Part shown: positions 11,620-18,403 of the stretch, piece by piece
How the letters are laid out: the number at the start of each line of letters is the position of its first letter
Position numbering within the stretch: the stretch's first letter is position 1
Program-made: the position numbers and the translations under genes
The notes under the pieces: model-generated
Seen by the model: only the letters and a program-made list of their open reading frames with translations
Told to the model about the DNA's origin: nothing
The model's database searches: none
Source: a virus
Virus record (IMG/VR): IMGVR_UViG_3300020183_000237
Span: 1-36,129 of that record
Length of the DNA stretch: 36,129 nt
Reading direction: 5' to 3' (one strand)

Positions 11620-13173
11620 TTATTGAGTCCTTTGAGCTGCGGCCTGCTCTTGCTGAGGGCTGGTTGAATCGATCTCAGGGACCAGGGCAACTTCAGGTGT
11701 CGACGGTTGCTGAAATTCTTGTTGTGGCTGCTCTGCCTCTTCCTTGGAAATACGTTTAATCTCTTCATTCACGGCCAAATCGGGATCAAGAATTCCGCCG
11801 CGTTGCAATTCATCAAGGACGGTTTGACGGCTCAAAAGCCCCGTTGAATATAGATTCACAAGCTGAGCAATGCCGCTAGGATCAAGAGGGCGATTGATTA
11901 GCGAATCGTTAATGCTGATTCCAGACTCTCTAGAAATTGAGTCAAATTCACCGGAGTAAACCGCCCATAGCTTCATAATGTTGTTGAATGCTGAAACCTT
12001 ATTGCGAATTAACGTACCCACTTGAGAAGCAACCTGAGCAGCTCGTAGCGATGCTTCCGTAGCGGTTTTAATATTGGCGCCGTACAGGAAATTAAGTCCA
12101 GAACGGTCCATCAACATTTCAAGATGCGTGATTTCAGCTTGATGGCGCTCAAGGGATTTGCCACTTGGCTCAGCAAAGTTGAAATCACCACCTTCGCCCG
12201 GCAAGTCCACCGCAGTATTGGGACCAAGAATTAAGGTAGAAGGACGGCCATCGGGGCCTACGGGAGCACCCTTACGCACTGGTACAGGCATTGCACACTT
12301 GTGAAGCAATTCCTGAAGGTCTGAACGCATTTGGAAATGCTGAATGCTTAATTCAGCAAGCCCATTCATGGGAAGTTCACCTTGAGCAAATCGAGTCGTA
12401 TTGGCACCATACCAGATCAAAGGTACTACCGGTAAACTTGTCTCAATCCTGTCTACTAAAACTTGCGACCAAGCCATATCGCGTCGTTCCAAACGTAATA
12501 CTTCCACTAAACCCGGTCGCAGAACATAATAGAAGGGTTCAAGAGTGGTGCCATATCCAGATTCGTTTGCAATGCAACGCAATTGCCGGACCGTTGCATG
12601 ACGGACGATCTCTCGTCCATTCTGATATTCAATAGACCAGTTAATTACATCTTTCCTCTCAACCAAAATTAAATAAGGTGTTCTGCCATCATTTTGCTCG
12701 TCAAAAAAGTTACTAGCACCATTCTCGGGCATCATGTCAACCATGATGTATACACCGCCATCACGCAGCGCCCTTTCGTCGCACTGGTTCCAAAAACTTT
12801 GGATGCTGGAACCTTGAAGGTCAATATTTCTTTCAGCAGACTGAAAGCTCGGCGGCACGCTAATTAACTGAAAGCGATTAAGCAATCCAGCGTAGGCGCG
12901 AATTGCGTCACGATAAATCGGAGTATAAGTCGAACGATGAAGTCGTTCCTGGTAAGCGTTTTGAGGCTCTGCAGGTTCCCTGTGTAAATATTTTGGTTTT
13001 GCTTCGCCTCGACCACCGGTATCGAGCAGACTCCAGCAATCAAGGGCTAATTCAAGGCCCGGCAAAGCCGCCACCAGTTCAGGGCGATGGTACGAAACCA
13101 GCGCGGGGTCAGTGGTGGGATGGGGAATTTGCATTGCTGGCATCGCGCCCAAAGATTGGAGCCCTTGCCTCAC
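11620..13173 (-). CDS. Portal-like protein (DUF4055 family)
   Basis: The portal is the dodecameric ring at one head vertex through which terminase pumps DNA. The opening ALVSYHRPELVAALPGLELALDCW, the YLHREPAEPQNAYQERLHRST block and DAIRAYAGLLNRF are typical of DUF4055 portal-type proteins. The middle contains PVVPLIWYGANTTRF and LAELSIQHFQMRSDLQELLHKCAMPVPV. After it comes a helix-rich stem region (KTATEASLRAAQVASQVGTLIRNKVSAFNNIMKLWAVYSGEF). Length of about 500 aa fits the family. The C-terminal 45 residues are Gln/Pro/Glu-rich and look disordered. The frame opens at GTG 13173; ATG 13143 (MPAMQIPHPTT) is an equally good start. It is separated from terminase by more than 8 kb. Confidence 0.75.
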   Translation of the reverse strand: MRQGLQSLGAMPAMQIPHPTTDPALVSYHRPELVAALPGLELALDCWSLLDTGGRGEAKPKYLHREPAEPQNAYQERLHRSTYTPIYRDAIRAYAGLLNRFQLISVPPSFQSAERNIDLQGSSIQSFWNQCDERALRDGGVYIMVDMMPENGASNFFDEQNDGRTPYLILVERKDVINWSIEYQNGREIVRHATVRQLRCIANESGYGTTLEPFYYVLRPGLVEVLRLERRDMAWSQVLVDRIETSLPVVPLIWYGANTTRFAQGELPMNGLAELSIQHFQMRSDLQELLHKCAMPVPVRKGAPVGPDGRPSTLILGPNTAVDLPGEGGDFNFAEPSGKSLERHQAEITHLEMLMDRSGLNFLYGANIKTATEASLRAAQVASQVGTLIRNKVSAFNNIMKLWAVYSGEFDSISRESGISINDSLINRPLDPSGIAQLVNLYSTGLLSRQTVLDELQRGGILDPDLAVNEEIKRISKEEAEQPQQEFQQPSTPEVALVPEIDSTSPQQEQAAAQRTQ

Positions 13174-13190: not shown

Positions 13191-14045
13191 TTAGTTTGCC
13201 GGAATGCTATTTAATGCATTCAATTCCAGTATACGCTTTAATGGAATTGCTGCAACTTGTGGAACAACTGAATTCCCTAGTTGCTTAAGTCGGTATACCC
13301 GATTGGATAACCCATCATCTCCTCGACGAAGGACGGGTTTAGAAACGTAGGAATGCCAATCGGCACTGAGGGGTGTGATTCCTTCAGCACTCCACAGAGT
13401 TCCTGGCGCTCCGCTTGGTGGATGCTGCTCTTGGATCCCTTCGGACCCACGTCCTTGCAGATCGAGGCAACTGGTGTCGGCAGAAGGACTCCTAATAATG
13501 GTGTTCCGCCCTGAGCATATGGTGTTCTGCGATTCGTTGAATCGTTTGCAACTGGTGTGGGCAATAATCCATACCCTGTTGCGTTTATGGCAGGCTCCCA
13601 GATCGCTTGCTGGTACAACTGCCCATTCCGCATCATACCCTGCTTGGGCAATTTGGAACAAGACTTCCTGGAATGTTTTCCCGTTTTTGTGAGATAATAA
13701 ATTCGCAACGTTCTCAAGCAAGATATATCTAGGTCGAATTTCCCTAGCCAACCGCATGACTTCATAAAATAGACTTGAGCGTTGTCCGTCAAGTCCAAGT
13801 TGCTTTCCTGCAATGGATAAGTCTTGCCAGGGAAATCCGGCAGTGATGACATCGCAACTATCTTTTCCCAGGAATAGTGTAGCTATATCTGACCATATTT
13901 CAATATTTGGCCAATGTTTTCTAAGTACATGTTGGCAATTTTTATCGATCTCGCAAAATCCAATTGTTTCATAGCCACCAACCAACTTTTCGGCCGCGTA
14001 TGAAAAGCCACCAATGCCCGAGAACAAATCAAGCAGCTTCAACAT
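13191..14045 (-). CDS. Cytosine-5 DNA methyltransferase homologue, catalytic Cys replaced by Trp
   Basis: C5-methyltransferases transfer a methyl group from SAM to cytosine through a cysteine that attacks C6. This 284-aa protein has motif I (residues 6-13, LDLFSGIGG) for SAM, the motif VI ENV triad (111-113), motif VIII (HKRNRVWIIAH) and motif X (QLGNSVVPQVA). Motif IV reads GFPWQDLSIAG: the invariant Pro-Cys is Pro-Trp (residue 73, codon TGG at 13827-13829), one base from TGC. With no nucleophile it should not methylate, though it could still bind DNA. I chose ATG 14045, overlapping dCTP deaminase by 17 nt; TTG 14051 is possible. No cognate restriction endonuclease is seen. Confidence 0.85.
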   Translation of the reverse strand: MLKLLDLFSGIGGFSYAAEKLVGGYETIGFCEIDKNCQHVLRKHWPNIEIWSDIATLFLGKDSCDVITAGFPWQDLSIAGKQLGLDGQRSSLFYEVMRLAREIRPRYILLENVANLLSHKNGKTFQEVLFQIAQAGYDAEWAVVPASDLGACHKRNRVWIIAHTSCKRFNESQNTICSGRNTIIRSPSADTSCLDLQGRGSEGIQEQHPPSGAPGTLWSAEGITPLSADWHSYVSKPVLRRGDDGLSNRVYRLKQLGNSVVPQVAAIPLKRILELNALNSIPAN

Positions 14046-14574
14046 TGCCAAATAAGGAAACTTTACTAGACATAACAGTTAGATCACCTTGATAATGACC
14101 CGTGGCAGCATAAGACTTTCCGGGGAAATTATTCAATTTTGCAAAACGAAGTTGGCCAATCAACATTCCAGTCTGCAATGGTAACTTATGTCGCTGATTA
14201 AGATTGTGGATCTCCAATGTGACACGGCCACAAAAACCAGGATCGATATATCCTGCTAGGGCATGATTGTATCCCTCTCGTCCTCTTGAACTTTTTAACT
14301 GAAAAATGCTTTCGCAATCATTTGGTACGCGAATAACTTCTTGCGTCACCGCCAAAATAAATTCATTTGGTTCCAACCAATAAACATTATCAATATTTAC
14401 TTTCTGCCAATGGCAGCGTTGTTCTTCAGGACCAATTGCAAGTCCCTCAACCAAAATCTCATCGCCTAATTTGACATCATAAGATGCTGGGTTCAATTGT
14501 TCCAAGTTGAATGGCTCAATCATGTGCAGAGAGTTTGCATATAATTCAATTTCATGATCAACAAGAGTCGCCAT
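14029..14574 (-). CDS. dcd: dCTP deaminase (Dcd family)
   Basis: Converts dCTP to dUTP (or, in bifunctional forms, directly to dUMP), feeding dUMP to thymidylate synthase. The trimeric-fold signature is complete: LNPASYDVKLGD near residues 27-38, IFQLKSSRGREG, then AGYIDPGFCGRVTLEIHN with the catalytic Glu, and LPLQTGMLIGQLRF. The start is ATG 14574 (MATLVDHEIELYA), giving 181 aa, the usual length; the frame opens further upstream but that part is not conserved-looking. It cooperates with ThyX (24093-24755) and ribonucleotide reductase, with the methyltransferase homologue overlapping its 3' end. Confidence 0.9.
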   Translation of the reverse strand: MATLVDHEIELYANSLHMIEPFNLEQLNPASYDVKLGDEILVEGLAIGPEEQRCHWQKVNIDNVYWLEPNEFILAVTQEVIRVPNDCESIFQLKSSRGREGYNHALAGYIDPGFCGRVTLEIHNLNQRHKLPLQTGMLIGQLRFAKLNNFPGKSYAATGHYQGDLTVMSSKVSLFGNVEAA

Positions 14575-14731
14575 AATCAGTGTTTTTAAAGGTTGTTTGT
14601 AATCCCAGGAACTTGCCCGACACGCAAGGTTTTCATTCAACCCAATTGGAATTCCGCCAACTGATCGATGCCATTCAAAAATCTATTGAGCAATTTAATT
14701 TCAGCATGGCAGAGTATGTTCTTGATAGTTT

Positions 14732-15004: not shown

Positions 15005-18000
15005 CTAGATTTGCTTTCCCGCTTGATCATTGTCCTTTCCTACAGTCGATAAACACTTATCGGAATCACAGCCAGCAGCACCTTTTAGTTCATAAGATGC
15101 ATTGTCATATTGAGCCAATAAGTCAAGCAAGCTAGTATCTTTGCTTAAGGTAACCCTAGAGGCAGCTACACAACTCATCCAACGATCATAGGTTTCTTTG
15201 TCAATTGGTTCAAACGGCAAGCGAGGGAAGGTTTCGTTTGAATCAAAACGAGCTAATAACGCCGCAGAAATGTACCCATTATCCTGTTGAATAGTATCGT
15301 AAATTAATTTACTCAAAGACGGAATTTCGTTTTCTTGATATTCTATGGTTGCAGAGGTATTGTGATCAGTGTAATAATTCTGAACTTGCATATACAGCCC
15401 AAACTGTGCTTCCACTGGAAGCTTGCTCAGGTCATATTGATCGCAACCAGGCAGATCCGCCCAGGAGACTGCTGTCGGAATTTCTACTAGGACTTCTTGA
15501 ACTCGCGGGTCGTTAATGTCGTCGAGTAGGTTGCCTTGATCGTCTTTTGCACTTTGCGCTGGGATGACGGAATAACCATAATCGCGCAGAGCGCTAACCA
15601 AAGGATCATTAACCCCAAAAGTGATACGACGAATAAATCGTTGCGCCTTTGGCGGGTGCCAACCCGGCGAAGCACCGGTAAGCAAGGATTTTGACCCTGC
15701 CGGTTGTACCGTAGTAAATCGGTTTGGTAGCTTGAGACCATTTAAAGTACAGTAATCTTTGATACCCTGAATAGCGGCTCGACGCCACCGCTGCAGATAC
15801 TTTCGCTCTGCTTCCTTATACATTCTACCGGCTCTGCCTCTTGGGCGGCCATTCATCATCCAACCAAGCCACTCAGATCCGAAGGCATGAACAAAAAAGT
15901 CAAACATACCAGTAAAACTGACGCCAACGATAGGATCGTTTTCACGGCTATACTGCAAACGTTCTGGGATAAATTTATGCTGTAACAATGCTGCAACTTG
16001 AAGGCCGCCAGCGTAGAAGGCGTTATGTTGCAATTTTTTATCTTGTGGATTGATAGTATTGAGGTGGATTTCAGAAAGATTACAAAGATTATCTCGCATA
16101 ATGATTTCACCGCACTGTCCAACTAGATGCTGGCTCCCAAGAGTGAATGCATGCGTATTAGGCACGGTACAGCAATAAACCTTGTCAGCTTTATGCGAAA
16201 AATCAATCGAAACAATCTTATTTGACCTAGATTTAAGTTGATAACGAACGGTGCGATTAGCAAAAGATTTTAGCCGTTGAAAATTTACGTTTTGAGCAAG
16301 TTTGACTGAGCTTGCTTGACTGATAACCAGCCGATAAGTTGGCTTGACCACATAAATACCTCCGCGCATGCTCCCGAAGTCTTTAAGACCTCCGGCCCTA
16401 ACAGGCCCAATCTTGCTTTCGATTCCTAGTGTGCTAAATAAAACGACCAAGCCCTCAAGAAATTCACGGCTAATGCTAGTGATCGAATAACCAAATCCAT
16501 TGATACTGTCCTGGGCAGTGCCGTCAGCATCAAATAGACCAGCTATAAATTCATACTTACAATTGTTTGTCCAATTCAACACGTCAGTGGGGAATGTTTT
16601 CTTGTATGTACGCGCCCAGTCGTACATGTCTTCCTCCATGCTCGTCAGGCTTTTTAGGAATCCGGTAGCAGTAAGTCCAGTCTCAACGCCTACGGTAATG
16701 CCGCTTTGTACAGTCTTTTCAACTAAGCCAATTTCATGTTGAGATGCACACAGTTTTTTCACACAGATCTCTTTAGGCTTATAGATTCGGCACATTGCGC
16801 GTTTGTCTTTCGTTGAAGTTCCATCGCCAATCAAAAATCCTTTAAGGTAAGCACCATTGACTTCAACTGTGCCTTGGACCGGACCAGTCTTGGCCATCAT
16901 CAACTTATCATTAACCCTTAGGTCTTTAAGTTGCACCCTAGTGCCATCTTCAAGAATAAATTTATGATATCGAGTCGCGGAAATTTTCAGTCCACTGTGT
17001 AGGGTGATCGTGTAAATATCTTGGTCATGGGCGGTGACACGAAAATTGTCAATCTCCACCCATTTATTCCCGTCATGAATCTCAACAGTTTTACCAACAA
17101 GATCCTCAATGGGATAATACCCCCTGCGGGTCATCACAATTGTACCAGCGGCAAAGCAAGGGTTAAGTCCATAACGGTCCATTCGATGATTAATAATCCG
17201 GTTATTGGTCGGCTGGCCATCAAGGTGGGCTAGTTCAATCAGATAATCACGCGCCAGCTCGCGCCCCTTAGTCGCGTATAATTCAAGAAACTTTAATTTC
17301 TTTTCTAGAGAATTCAACAAGTCAGCGTTCGCTCTGGCAACGGCTTCAGGAACATACATGATCGCCCCTTCGCCAGACCAATATTGCTTGGTCACAGCAT
17401 TCTGAACCTCCCGTAGGGTCGGCTTATGATGGAAGCACCTCGTATGATTTGCCATTCTTAGTGCTTCTTTTACAGGATTAACGCTCCAATTGCCGTCTAT
17501 ATCTTGCTTGTAAAGGCCATCTTTTGCTTCTGTGGCAGCGGAATCGCCAGAACTAAACTGTCGCATGCCGGCACTACGACGAATGTTCCCAGCAACAACA
17601 GCGCTAGCAGCCTCGTCGATAATCAGACAGGTCTCTACCGAGTCGAGTTTGCGCCCTACGGCGGCCGTTAAGACCCCCGCAACGCGCTCTAGGGTGGTCT
17701 GTAGCCGGACAGGGTTAGCGGTGCCTCCAAAGCCCTTCAGGGGCTCTCCTGCTTGGCGCACTTGACTTAGATCCAACACTACTTCGGCGTCGATACACAA
17801 AGTATCATCGCCCTCGGCCTCTGCCGGCATTCCAACTGCTAATTCGATCAAGCCCTGGTAAGCCGAAGCCCAACCATGGCGAGAATCACCAATGGTTAAG
17901 TGGATAACTGGATTTTCATTATTGATACCAACCATTCGGATAGTGGTGTCAGGGCTGCCACCTACCATACCCGTATTTTGCACAACGTGAGTAATATGAA

Positions 18001-18403
18001 GCCCCCTGCGAATTTTGGGCAACTTTTCGATTGTTTCTTTCTCAAGAACAGCTCCAGTTCCAGTTCCCATCATTGCCAGCTCCATCAGAAGGCCAAACAT
18101 TGGCACTTCATCAAGATGCATAGAACAACAATTATAGAAACCAGGAAAGTTCTCAGCCCTTTTTGCCCATTCGGTTCCTGCTACCCACAGCGAACGCCCA
18201 CTTGGCAAGCAATGCTGTCGTTGGGCCATATCCATTGCCAATTGACGTTGCTCGTCAGAAAATTTACCAACATCAGCAATCGCATTAATTGTCCGCGTTA
18301 TTGCCTCTTCGTAATTTTCCCTGACGCCATCAGGCTTTCGGCGGGAATATGAACGATAGAAAACGGCCGGCGCAGAAGGCGCAGTAGAGCGAAATTCGGA
18401 CAT
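15005..18403 (-). CDS. nrdJ: Class II ribonucleotide reductase, monomeric RTPR type, with intein
   Basis: Uses adenosylcobalamin to reduce ribonucleoside triphosphates to deoxy forms. The 1132-aa product contains an intein at residues 416-763; the spliced enzyme would be 784 aa, near the normal length. N-terminal features are LPSGRSLWVAGT, FYNCCSMHLDE (first redox cysteine), MMGTGTG and FGGTANPVRL...AVVAGNIRRSAG. After splicing, NP joins CGEI, which carries the radical-forming cysteine and the neighbouring Glu; NLCNLSEI has the second redox cysteine, and the C-terminus has CDSDKC, the swinging dithiol pair. The start is ATG 18403. The glutaredoxin at 19117 may recycle it. A strong terminator follows. 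A B12-dependent enzyme ties it to a host that makes or imports cobalamin or pseudocobalamin. Confidence 0.93.
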   Translation of the reverse strand: MSEFRSTAPSAPAVFYRSYSRRKPDGVRENYEEAITRTINAIADVGKFSDEQRQLAMDMAQRQHCLPSGRSLWVAGTEWAKRAENFPGFYNCCSMHLDEVPMFGLLMELAMMGTGTGAVLEKETIEKLPKIRRGLHITHVVQNTGMVGGSPDTTIRMVGINNENPVIHLTIGDSRHGWASAYQGLIELAVGMPAEAEGDDTLCIDAEVVLDLSQVRQAGEPLKGFGGTANPVRLQTTLERVAGVLTAAVGRKLDSVETCLIIDEAASAVVAGNIRRSAGMRQFSSGDSAATEAKDGLYKQDIDGNWSVNPVKEALRMANHTRCFHHKPTLREVQNAVTKQYWSGEGAIMYVPEAVARANADLLNSLEKKLKFLELYATKGRELARDYLIELAHLDGQPTNNRIINHRMDRYGLNPCFAAGTIVMTRRGYYPIEDLVGKTVEIHDGNKWVEIDNFRVTAHDQDIYTITLHSGLKISATRYHKFILEDGTRVQLKDLRVNDKLMMAKTGPVQGTVEVNGAYLKGFLIGDGTSTKDKRAMCRIYKPKEICVKKLCASQHEIGLVEKTVQSGITVGVETGLTATGFLKSLTSMEEDMYDWARTYKKTFPTDVLNWTNNCKYEFIAGLFDADGTAQDSINGFGYSITSISREFLEGLVVLFSTLGIESKIGPVRAGGLKDFGSMRGGIYVVKPTYRLVISQASSVKLAQNVNFQRLKSFANRTVRYQLKSRSNKIVSIDFSHKADKVYCCTVPNTHAFTLGSQHLVGQCGEIIMRDNLCNLSEIHLNTINPQDKKLQHNAFYAGGLQVAALLQHKFIPERLQYSRENDPIVGVSFTGMFDFFVHAFGSEWLGWMMNGRPRGRAGRMYKEAERKYLQRWRRAAIQGIKDYCTLNGLKLPNRFTTVQPAGSKSLLTGASPGWHPPKAQRFIRRITFGVNDPLVSALRDYGYSVIPAQSAKDDQGNLLDDINDPRVQEVLVEIPTAVSWADLPGCDQYDLSKLPVEAQFGLYMQVQNYYTDHNTSATIEYQENEIPSLSKLIYDTIQQDNGYISAALLARFDSNETFPRLPFEPIDKETYDRWMSCVAASRVTLSKDTSLLDLLAQYDNASYELKGAAGCDSDKCLSTVGKDNDQAGKQI
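16115..17158 (-). mobile_element. Intein with LAGLIDADG homing endonuclease in nrdJ
   Basis: A 348-aa in-frame insertion begins at Cys416 (CFAAGTIVMTRRGYYPIEDL, block A) and has a block B TxxH (ISATRYHKF). Two LAGLIDADG-type motifs follow, LKGFLIGDGTS and FIAGLFDADGT. The end has block F (CCTVPNTHAFTL) and finishes LVGQ directly before the +1 Cys. Canonical inteins end HN; here the last residues are Gly-Gln. The +1 nucleophile is the reductase's own radical cysteine, so the enzyme cannot work unless the intein leaves precisely. Whether the endonuclease is active is not visible, but both acidic motif residues are present. Confidence 0.9.

Follow-up and report, generated by a model that had tools for sequence, protein, structure and literature searches.

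A cyanophage-like contig with tryptophan at the catalytic cysteine position of a C5-cytosine methyltransferase homologue and a predicted second subunit in an overlapping reading frame

The window analysed here is the whole stretch of 36,129 nucleotides of the IMG/VR virus record IMGVR_UViG_3300020183_000237. The source virus appears cyanophage-like, the portal protein being 62-69% identical to those of cyanophages S-CBS2 and S-CRES1 to S-CRES3. On the minus strand, positions 13191..14045 hold an open reading frame (ORF) of 284 amino acids, termed alpha below. Profile matches place a dCTP-deaminase-like gene upstream (14029..14640, minus strand), which overlaps the start of alpha by 17 bases, and the portal protein gene (DUF4055; 11620..13173, minus strand) downstream. 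The closest relative found, IMGVR_UViG_3300010354_000278 (34,874 bases, referred to as G001), carries a methyltransferase 74% identical to that of the window, likewise flanked by the dCTP-deaminase-like and portal genes. Among 57 related contigs fetched with the portal, G001 is the only one with a methyltransferase match between these two genes, which directly adjoin each other in most of the others. Since a methyltransferase is rare at this site, we consider it an accessory gene of this sub-lineage. Elsewhere in the window, the ribonucleotide reductase gene (15005-18403) contains an intein at about 16114-17156 with a LAGLIDADG endonuclease (PF14528, PF14890); this intein is absent from G001, where the protein is 784 amino acids long versus 1132 in the window.

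The first-pass annotation had recognised a C5-methyltransferase homologue here, and profile searches confirm it on the minus strand: alpha matches PF00145 (E=9.2e-47, 160.5 bits against a cut-off of 22), TIGR00675 (141.5 bits, above the cut-off of 100.65) and PHROG 363 (6e-68). Together with the structure model, these matches point to a catalytic domain comprising motifs I-VIII and X. In the translation and alignment, motif I (DLFSGIGG) lies at 14007..14030, motif VI (ENV) at 13707..13715, motif VIII (RNRVW) at 13569..13583 and motif X (QLGNSVVPQ) at 13257..13283, all on the minus strand. The predicted structure shows a confident catalytic fold over residues 1-168, with M.HhaI and M.HaeIII as its closest PDB matches. 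Residues 169-214 are predicted to be disordered (pLDDT <50), and the model has no folded recognition domain in the stretch between motifs VIII and X. All motifs other than motif IV had initially been described as intact; this holds for I, VI, VIII and X, which are in frame, but the target-recognition domain (TRD) and motif IX are absent from the alpha polypeptide and are found instead in the +1 frame, a second reading frame that the first-pass annotation had missed. As modelled, the alpha frame would cross the DNA of the recognition region without forming a domain and regain motif X at its end.

Motif IV of alpha reads ITAGFPWQDLSIAG (GFPWQD). The codon at 13827..13829 (minus strand) is TGG, and the resulting Trp73 aligns with the catalytic cysteine of GFPCQ in M.HhaI, as had been noted from the sequence. 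Alpha thus lacks the catalytic Pro-Cys of motif IV (GFPWQ), and while its sequence makes it a C5-cytosine methyltransferase homologue by descent, activity is not expected of it. The same base change turns residue 9 of the overlapping +1 ORF into glycine; among 85 relatives this residue is Ala in 64 and Val in 20, and Gly in the window only. At the Trp73 position, cysteine is present in all 47 other alpha sequences of our aligned set, and G001 has TGC (FPCQ) at this codon. A wider collection of 197 distinct homologous ORFs comprises 190 with Cys, four in which the site is not covered, and three with Trp, the latter being the window itself and two copies of one locus from a metagenome-assembled genome (MAG).

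A search for homologues carrying FPWQ, which the first-pass annotation had proposed, yielded next to nothing. A degenerate FPWQ pattern, whose TGY version would recover 74 of 79 relatives, found 0 further contigs in IMG/VR. Applied to 84,980 GTDB species genomes, the pattern gave 13 stretches, with a single methyltransferase among them; both searches may have skipped the records closest to the window, and with them very close Trp-bearing strains. That methyltransferase, the only other one with FPWQ in these genomes, is a methyltransferase-HNH fusion with FPWQ in motif IV from a Sulfuriferula MAG (L193, JAAFGW010000249.1, 794-2884); it lies on a short contig and may equally be a null allele or an error. 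Other one-base replacements of the cysteine were not found in IMG/VR with two strict patterns, the TGY version of which would recover only 20 of 79 relatives, so that this negative is weak. The Trp is an isolated change and not a chance pattern. We also considered Cys152 in motif VIII as a substitute nucleophile; it is not a replacement, because G001 and Synechococcus phage S-H1 both carry Cys152 while keeping the motif IV cysteine.

The +1 ORF (13277..13852, minus strand) starts with ATG and is 191 amino acids long. On the basis of its substitution pattern, profile matches and relatives, we predict that it encodes a second subunit, beta, with the recognition domain and motif IX. It matches PHROG 1008 (‘DNA methyltransferase’) with E=4e-17, and neither Pfam nor NCBIfam profiles match it. 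Its order is LPTP repeats followed by LNPSFVEEMMGYPIGYT. The variable region, the putative TRD, occupies 13343..13570 (minus strand; GLLPTPVANDS...GVLLPTPVASICKD) and is supported by substitutions at +1 wobble positions and by the occurrence of the same repeats in the single-frame relatives described below. Motif IX, LNPSFVEEMMGYPIGYTDL, follows at 13286..13342 (minus strand), and its residues M180, G181 and P183 are invariant across 51 beta sequences. Folded alone, beta gave a poor model (pLDDT 57.5), a PDB search with which returned no match. By eye, no strong ribosome-binding site precedes the beta ATG.

Comparison of the window with G001 indicates which frame is under constraint. Over codons 166-230, the alpha frame has a dN of 0.42 and a dS of 0.21, with substitutions distributed as [37,10,9] over alpha positions 1, 2 and 3. 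Position 1 in alpha corresponds to the wobble position in the +1 frame, and codons 1-120 show a different pattern (p=1.7e-6). Frame 0 has a dN/dS (NG86) of 1.64 in codons 151-190, compared with 0.04 for +1 and 2.51 for +2; in codons 233-256, frame 0 (0.16) and +1 (0.04) are both conserved. The same skew recurs in independent close pairs, namely L095/L180 [10,2,0], L169/L227 [22,3,5] and L238/L241 [7,1,0]. In the window/G001 pair, the clear signature of selection on beta is confined to approximately the end of motif VIII through motif IX; the first 45 or so codons of beta have a dN/dS of 1.23 and no clear signature. Two other readings of these rates were rejected. Positive selection in the TRD, suggested by a frame-0 dN/dS of about 2 over codons 166-230, was set aside when the +1 frame was found to be conserved; the excess of amino acid changes in the alpha frame arises because it is the second frame that is conserved. 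Recent transfer of the methyltransferase between the two phages was suggested by a dS of 0.51 versus near-saturation elsewhere, but the low gene-wide value is due to the dual-coded part, since codons 1-64, without beta overlap, give a dS of 1.1.

The +1 ORF is widespread in the sub-family. Of the 107 relatives whose motifs IV and X share an ORF, 85 carry a +1 ORF whose terminal motif is (L/M)MG(F/Y)P, a fraction that applies to this sample, collected with a sub-family profile, and not to C5-methyltransferases at large. In these 85 relatives, the median open span of the +1 frame is 180 codons versus 97 after synonymous codon shuffling, and in about 87% of cases the ORF is longer than its synonymous shuffles. 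A fully open +1 frame is seen in 81%; the +2 frame is never open throughout. Two relatives, L096 (6370-7620, plus strand) and L133 (2018-3478, plus strand), carry motifs I-VIII, LPTP repeats, a motif IX of the form SP(A/I)FVEW(L/M)MG and motif X in one frame, and resemble the alpha/beta pair in fused form. With motif IX standing in frame with motifs IV and X, this single-frame order implies that the +1 ORF holds the recognition region and motif IX of a one-chain enzyme. A search for classical monomers found none with a strict motif IX pattern and three ORFs with a looser one; L096 and L133 proved to be the informative fused relatives.

Other arrangements were also encountered among the relatives. 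In L204 (2139-2949, plus strand), the first frame ends after motifs I-VIII and a second frame fuses the recognition region with motif X, which may represent an M.AquI-like split within the same family, or a frameshift. Mycobacterium phage Llama (L279, 1501-2260) has its methyltransferase split in the annotation between two adjacent genes, 74 and 75, in different frames. In many other phage records, the +1 ORF match falls within what is annotated as one methyltransferase gene. Relatives (L206, L274 and L236, for example) differ in how many L/WPTP-x-A repeats their beta variable region holds, and these repeats may be modular recognition units.

Among characterised enzymes, the layout most resembles that of M.EcoHK31I, a two-polypeptide C5-methyltransferase specific for YGGCCR. 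Its small subunit reportedly arises from an alternative frame within the large one (attributed to Lee et al. 1995). In M.EcoHK31I, the larger subunit has motifs I-VIII and X and the smaller one has motif IX, with the TRD predicted to lie in the large subunit; in M.AquI, motifs IX and X are both on the small subunit (PMC3404938). At the level of sequence, the window likewise has motifs I-VIII and X on its large polypeptide, with motif IV altered by the Trp, and the small polypeptide predicted from the overlapping frame holds motif IX. It differs from M.EcoHK31I in that the codon evidence and the predicted disorder of alpha residues 169-214 place the recognition region in the small subunit, in that the catalytic cysteine is Trp, and in that the locus is phage-borne, with a dCTP-deaminase-like gene and a portal gene and no restriction gene as neighbours. 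Since the placement of the M.EcoHK31I TRD is itself a prediction, we describe the window locus, compared here by description, as M.EcoHK31I-like in layout and do not claim membership. With M.AquI, it shares the separation of catalytic and recognition parts onto two polypeptides, but in M.AquI the small subunit carries motif X as well as motif IX, an arrangement that L204 resembles and the window does not. M.HhaI and M.HaeIII have the catalytic fold and motifs I-VIII in common with alpha, but are single chains with their own TRD and motif IX and an active-site cysteine. S-H1, whose enzyme (AZB50543.1) is 48% identical to alpha, also has the +1 ORF, but keeps the cysteine (FPCQ) and has different neighbours. 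A literature search for inactive phage C5-methyltransferases or phage alpha/beta overlaps found nothing directly relevant.

We put at roughly 0.78 the probability that the locus is a phage alpha/beta methyltransferase, catalytically dead as sequenced through either a recent substitution or a consensus error; the overlapping two-subunit part of this reading is, by itself, very probably correct. Phage methyltransferase genes usually serve to protect against host restriction, and the motif IV cysteine is the attacking nucleophile of C5-methyltransferases. In the mechanism we propose, alpha (13191-14045) would supply motifs I-VIII and X, for cofactor binding and catalysis, while beta, if expressed from the +1 frame of the same DNA, would supply the target-recognition region and motif IX. 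The two would assemble into one enzyme, in which beta would read the sequence and the alpha cysteine would attack the flipped cytosine; the resulting methylation would presumably protect phage DNA from restriction or serve regulation, the former being suggested by analogy. In this contig, Trp replaces the attacking cysteine and, given the known role of that residue, the complex should not methylate. The corresponding type of change exists in DNMT1, for which a C1226W construct is listed among point mutants (PMC10997609), in a passage that does not describe its activity.

How, then, did the Trp arise? In all likelihood it is either a recent null mutation or a consensus error, and not the mark of a novel type of enzyme, since the closest relative has an ordinary active site and the two frames are in all other respects intact. 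Derived differences between the window and G001 are balanced (26 versus 27 in alpha, 16 versus 12 in beta), the window-specific alpha changes at outgroup-conserved columns are mild apart from the Trp (I54, V144, H163), and neither frame shows decay. We give an even chance to a real, recent inactivating mutation in this individual phage or its lineage, the gene now decaying or being complemented by other copies in the population. In its favour, the Trp is a singleton one base from Cys, relatives have Cys, the gene otherwise shows no decay, and it looks dispensable, a methyltransferase being found at this site only in G001 among the portal-fetched contigs. The contig is clean: compared with G001, there are no broken genes, gene lengths agree apart from small start differences and the intein, and the near-invariant columns of the portal, dCTP-deaminase-like and ribonucleotide reductase proteins show two conservative changes in 350. 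On the contig sequence alone, however, such a mutation is not separable from an error. The proposal that a TGC to TGG change had killed the enzyme stands in so far as G001 has TGC and no other conserved site has changed radically, but a consensus error is equally hard to dismiss.

A consensus or assembly error, with the phage population having the normal Cys codon and an intact enzyme, is a serious if tentative possibility that falls short of even odds. It would account for a singleton one base away from a cysteine that nearly all relatives, including the whole aligned set, retain, and for the lack of other signs of decay; the unbroken genes and the few odd residues in the three other genes examined speak against it.

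It is highly improbable that the Trp form has been kept as a catalytically dead DNA-binding alpha/beta complex, acting as a site mask or regulator. The first-pass annotation had put forward such a masking protein, for which we found no positive support. Such a protein would need the second subunit to recognise DNA; both frames are intact, so that beta could still do so, and dead C5-methyltransferase homologues with other roles do exist, plant DRM3 being an example (PMC2965745). However, the Trp is a singleton, the searches turned up no lineage of Trp-bearing homologues that might reveal later selection, so that conservation following the change cannot be demonstrated, and the Trp side chain would be expected to fill the pocket of the flipped base, against tight specific binding. 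Were masking nonetheless to be true, a single base change would have altered both overlapping proteins (Cys to Trp in alpha, Ala to Gly in beta). Weakest of all, and very improbable, is that the +1 ORF merely reflects codon and amino-acid composition and the enzyme is one polypeptide in frame 0, which would suit the near-total lack of beta annotation in matching phage records, but is opposed by the excess over synonymous shuffles, by purifying selection between motifs VIII and IX in +1 and its absence there in frame 0, by fused relatives that contain exactly the +1 region, and by the PHROG 1008 match.

For the alpha/beta methyltransferase that we favour, the Trp alone is a minor curiosity and the hidden recognition half is the more useful result. 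The principle of an overlapping two-subunit methyltransferase is already known from M.EcoHK31I. But the phage ‘cytosine methyltransferases’ of a common class seem to conceal a second gene, which usually goes unannotated. If the visible frame alone were cloned or annotated, the enzyme would lack its recognition part, and comparisons of specificity based on that frame would rest on residues that are not under selection. The large natural set of dual-coded genes, with their fused and split relatives, would also lend itself to the study of how such overlaps originate.
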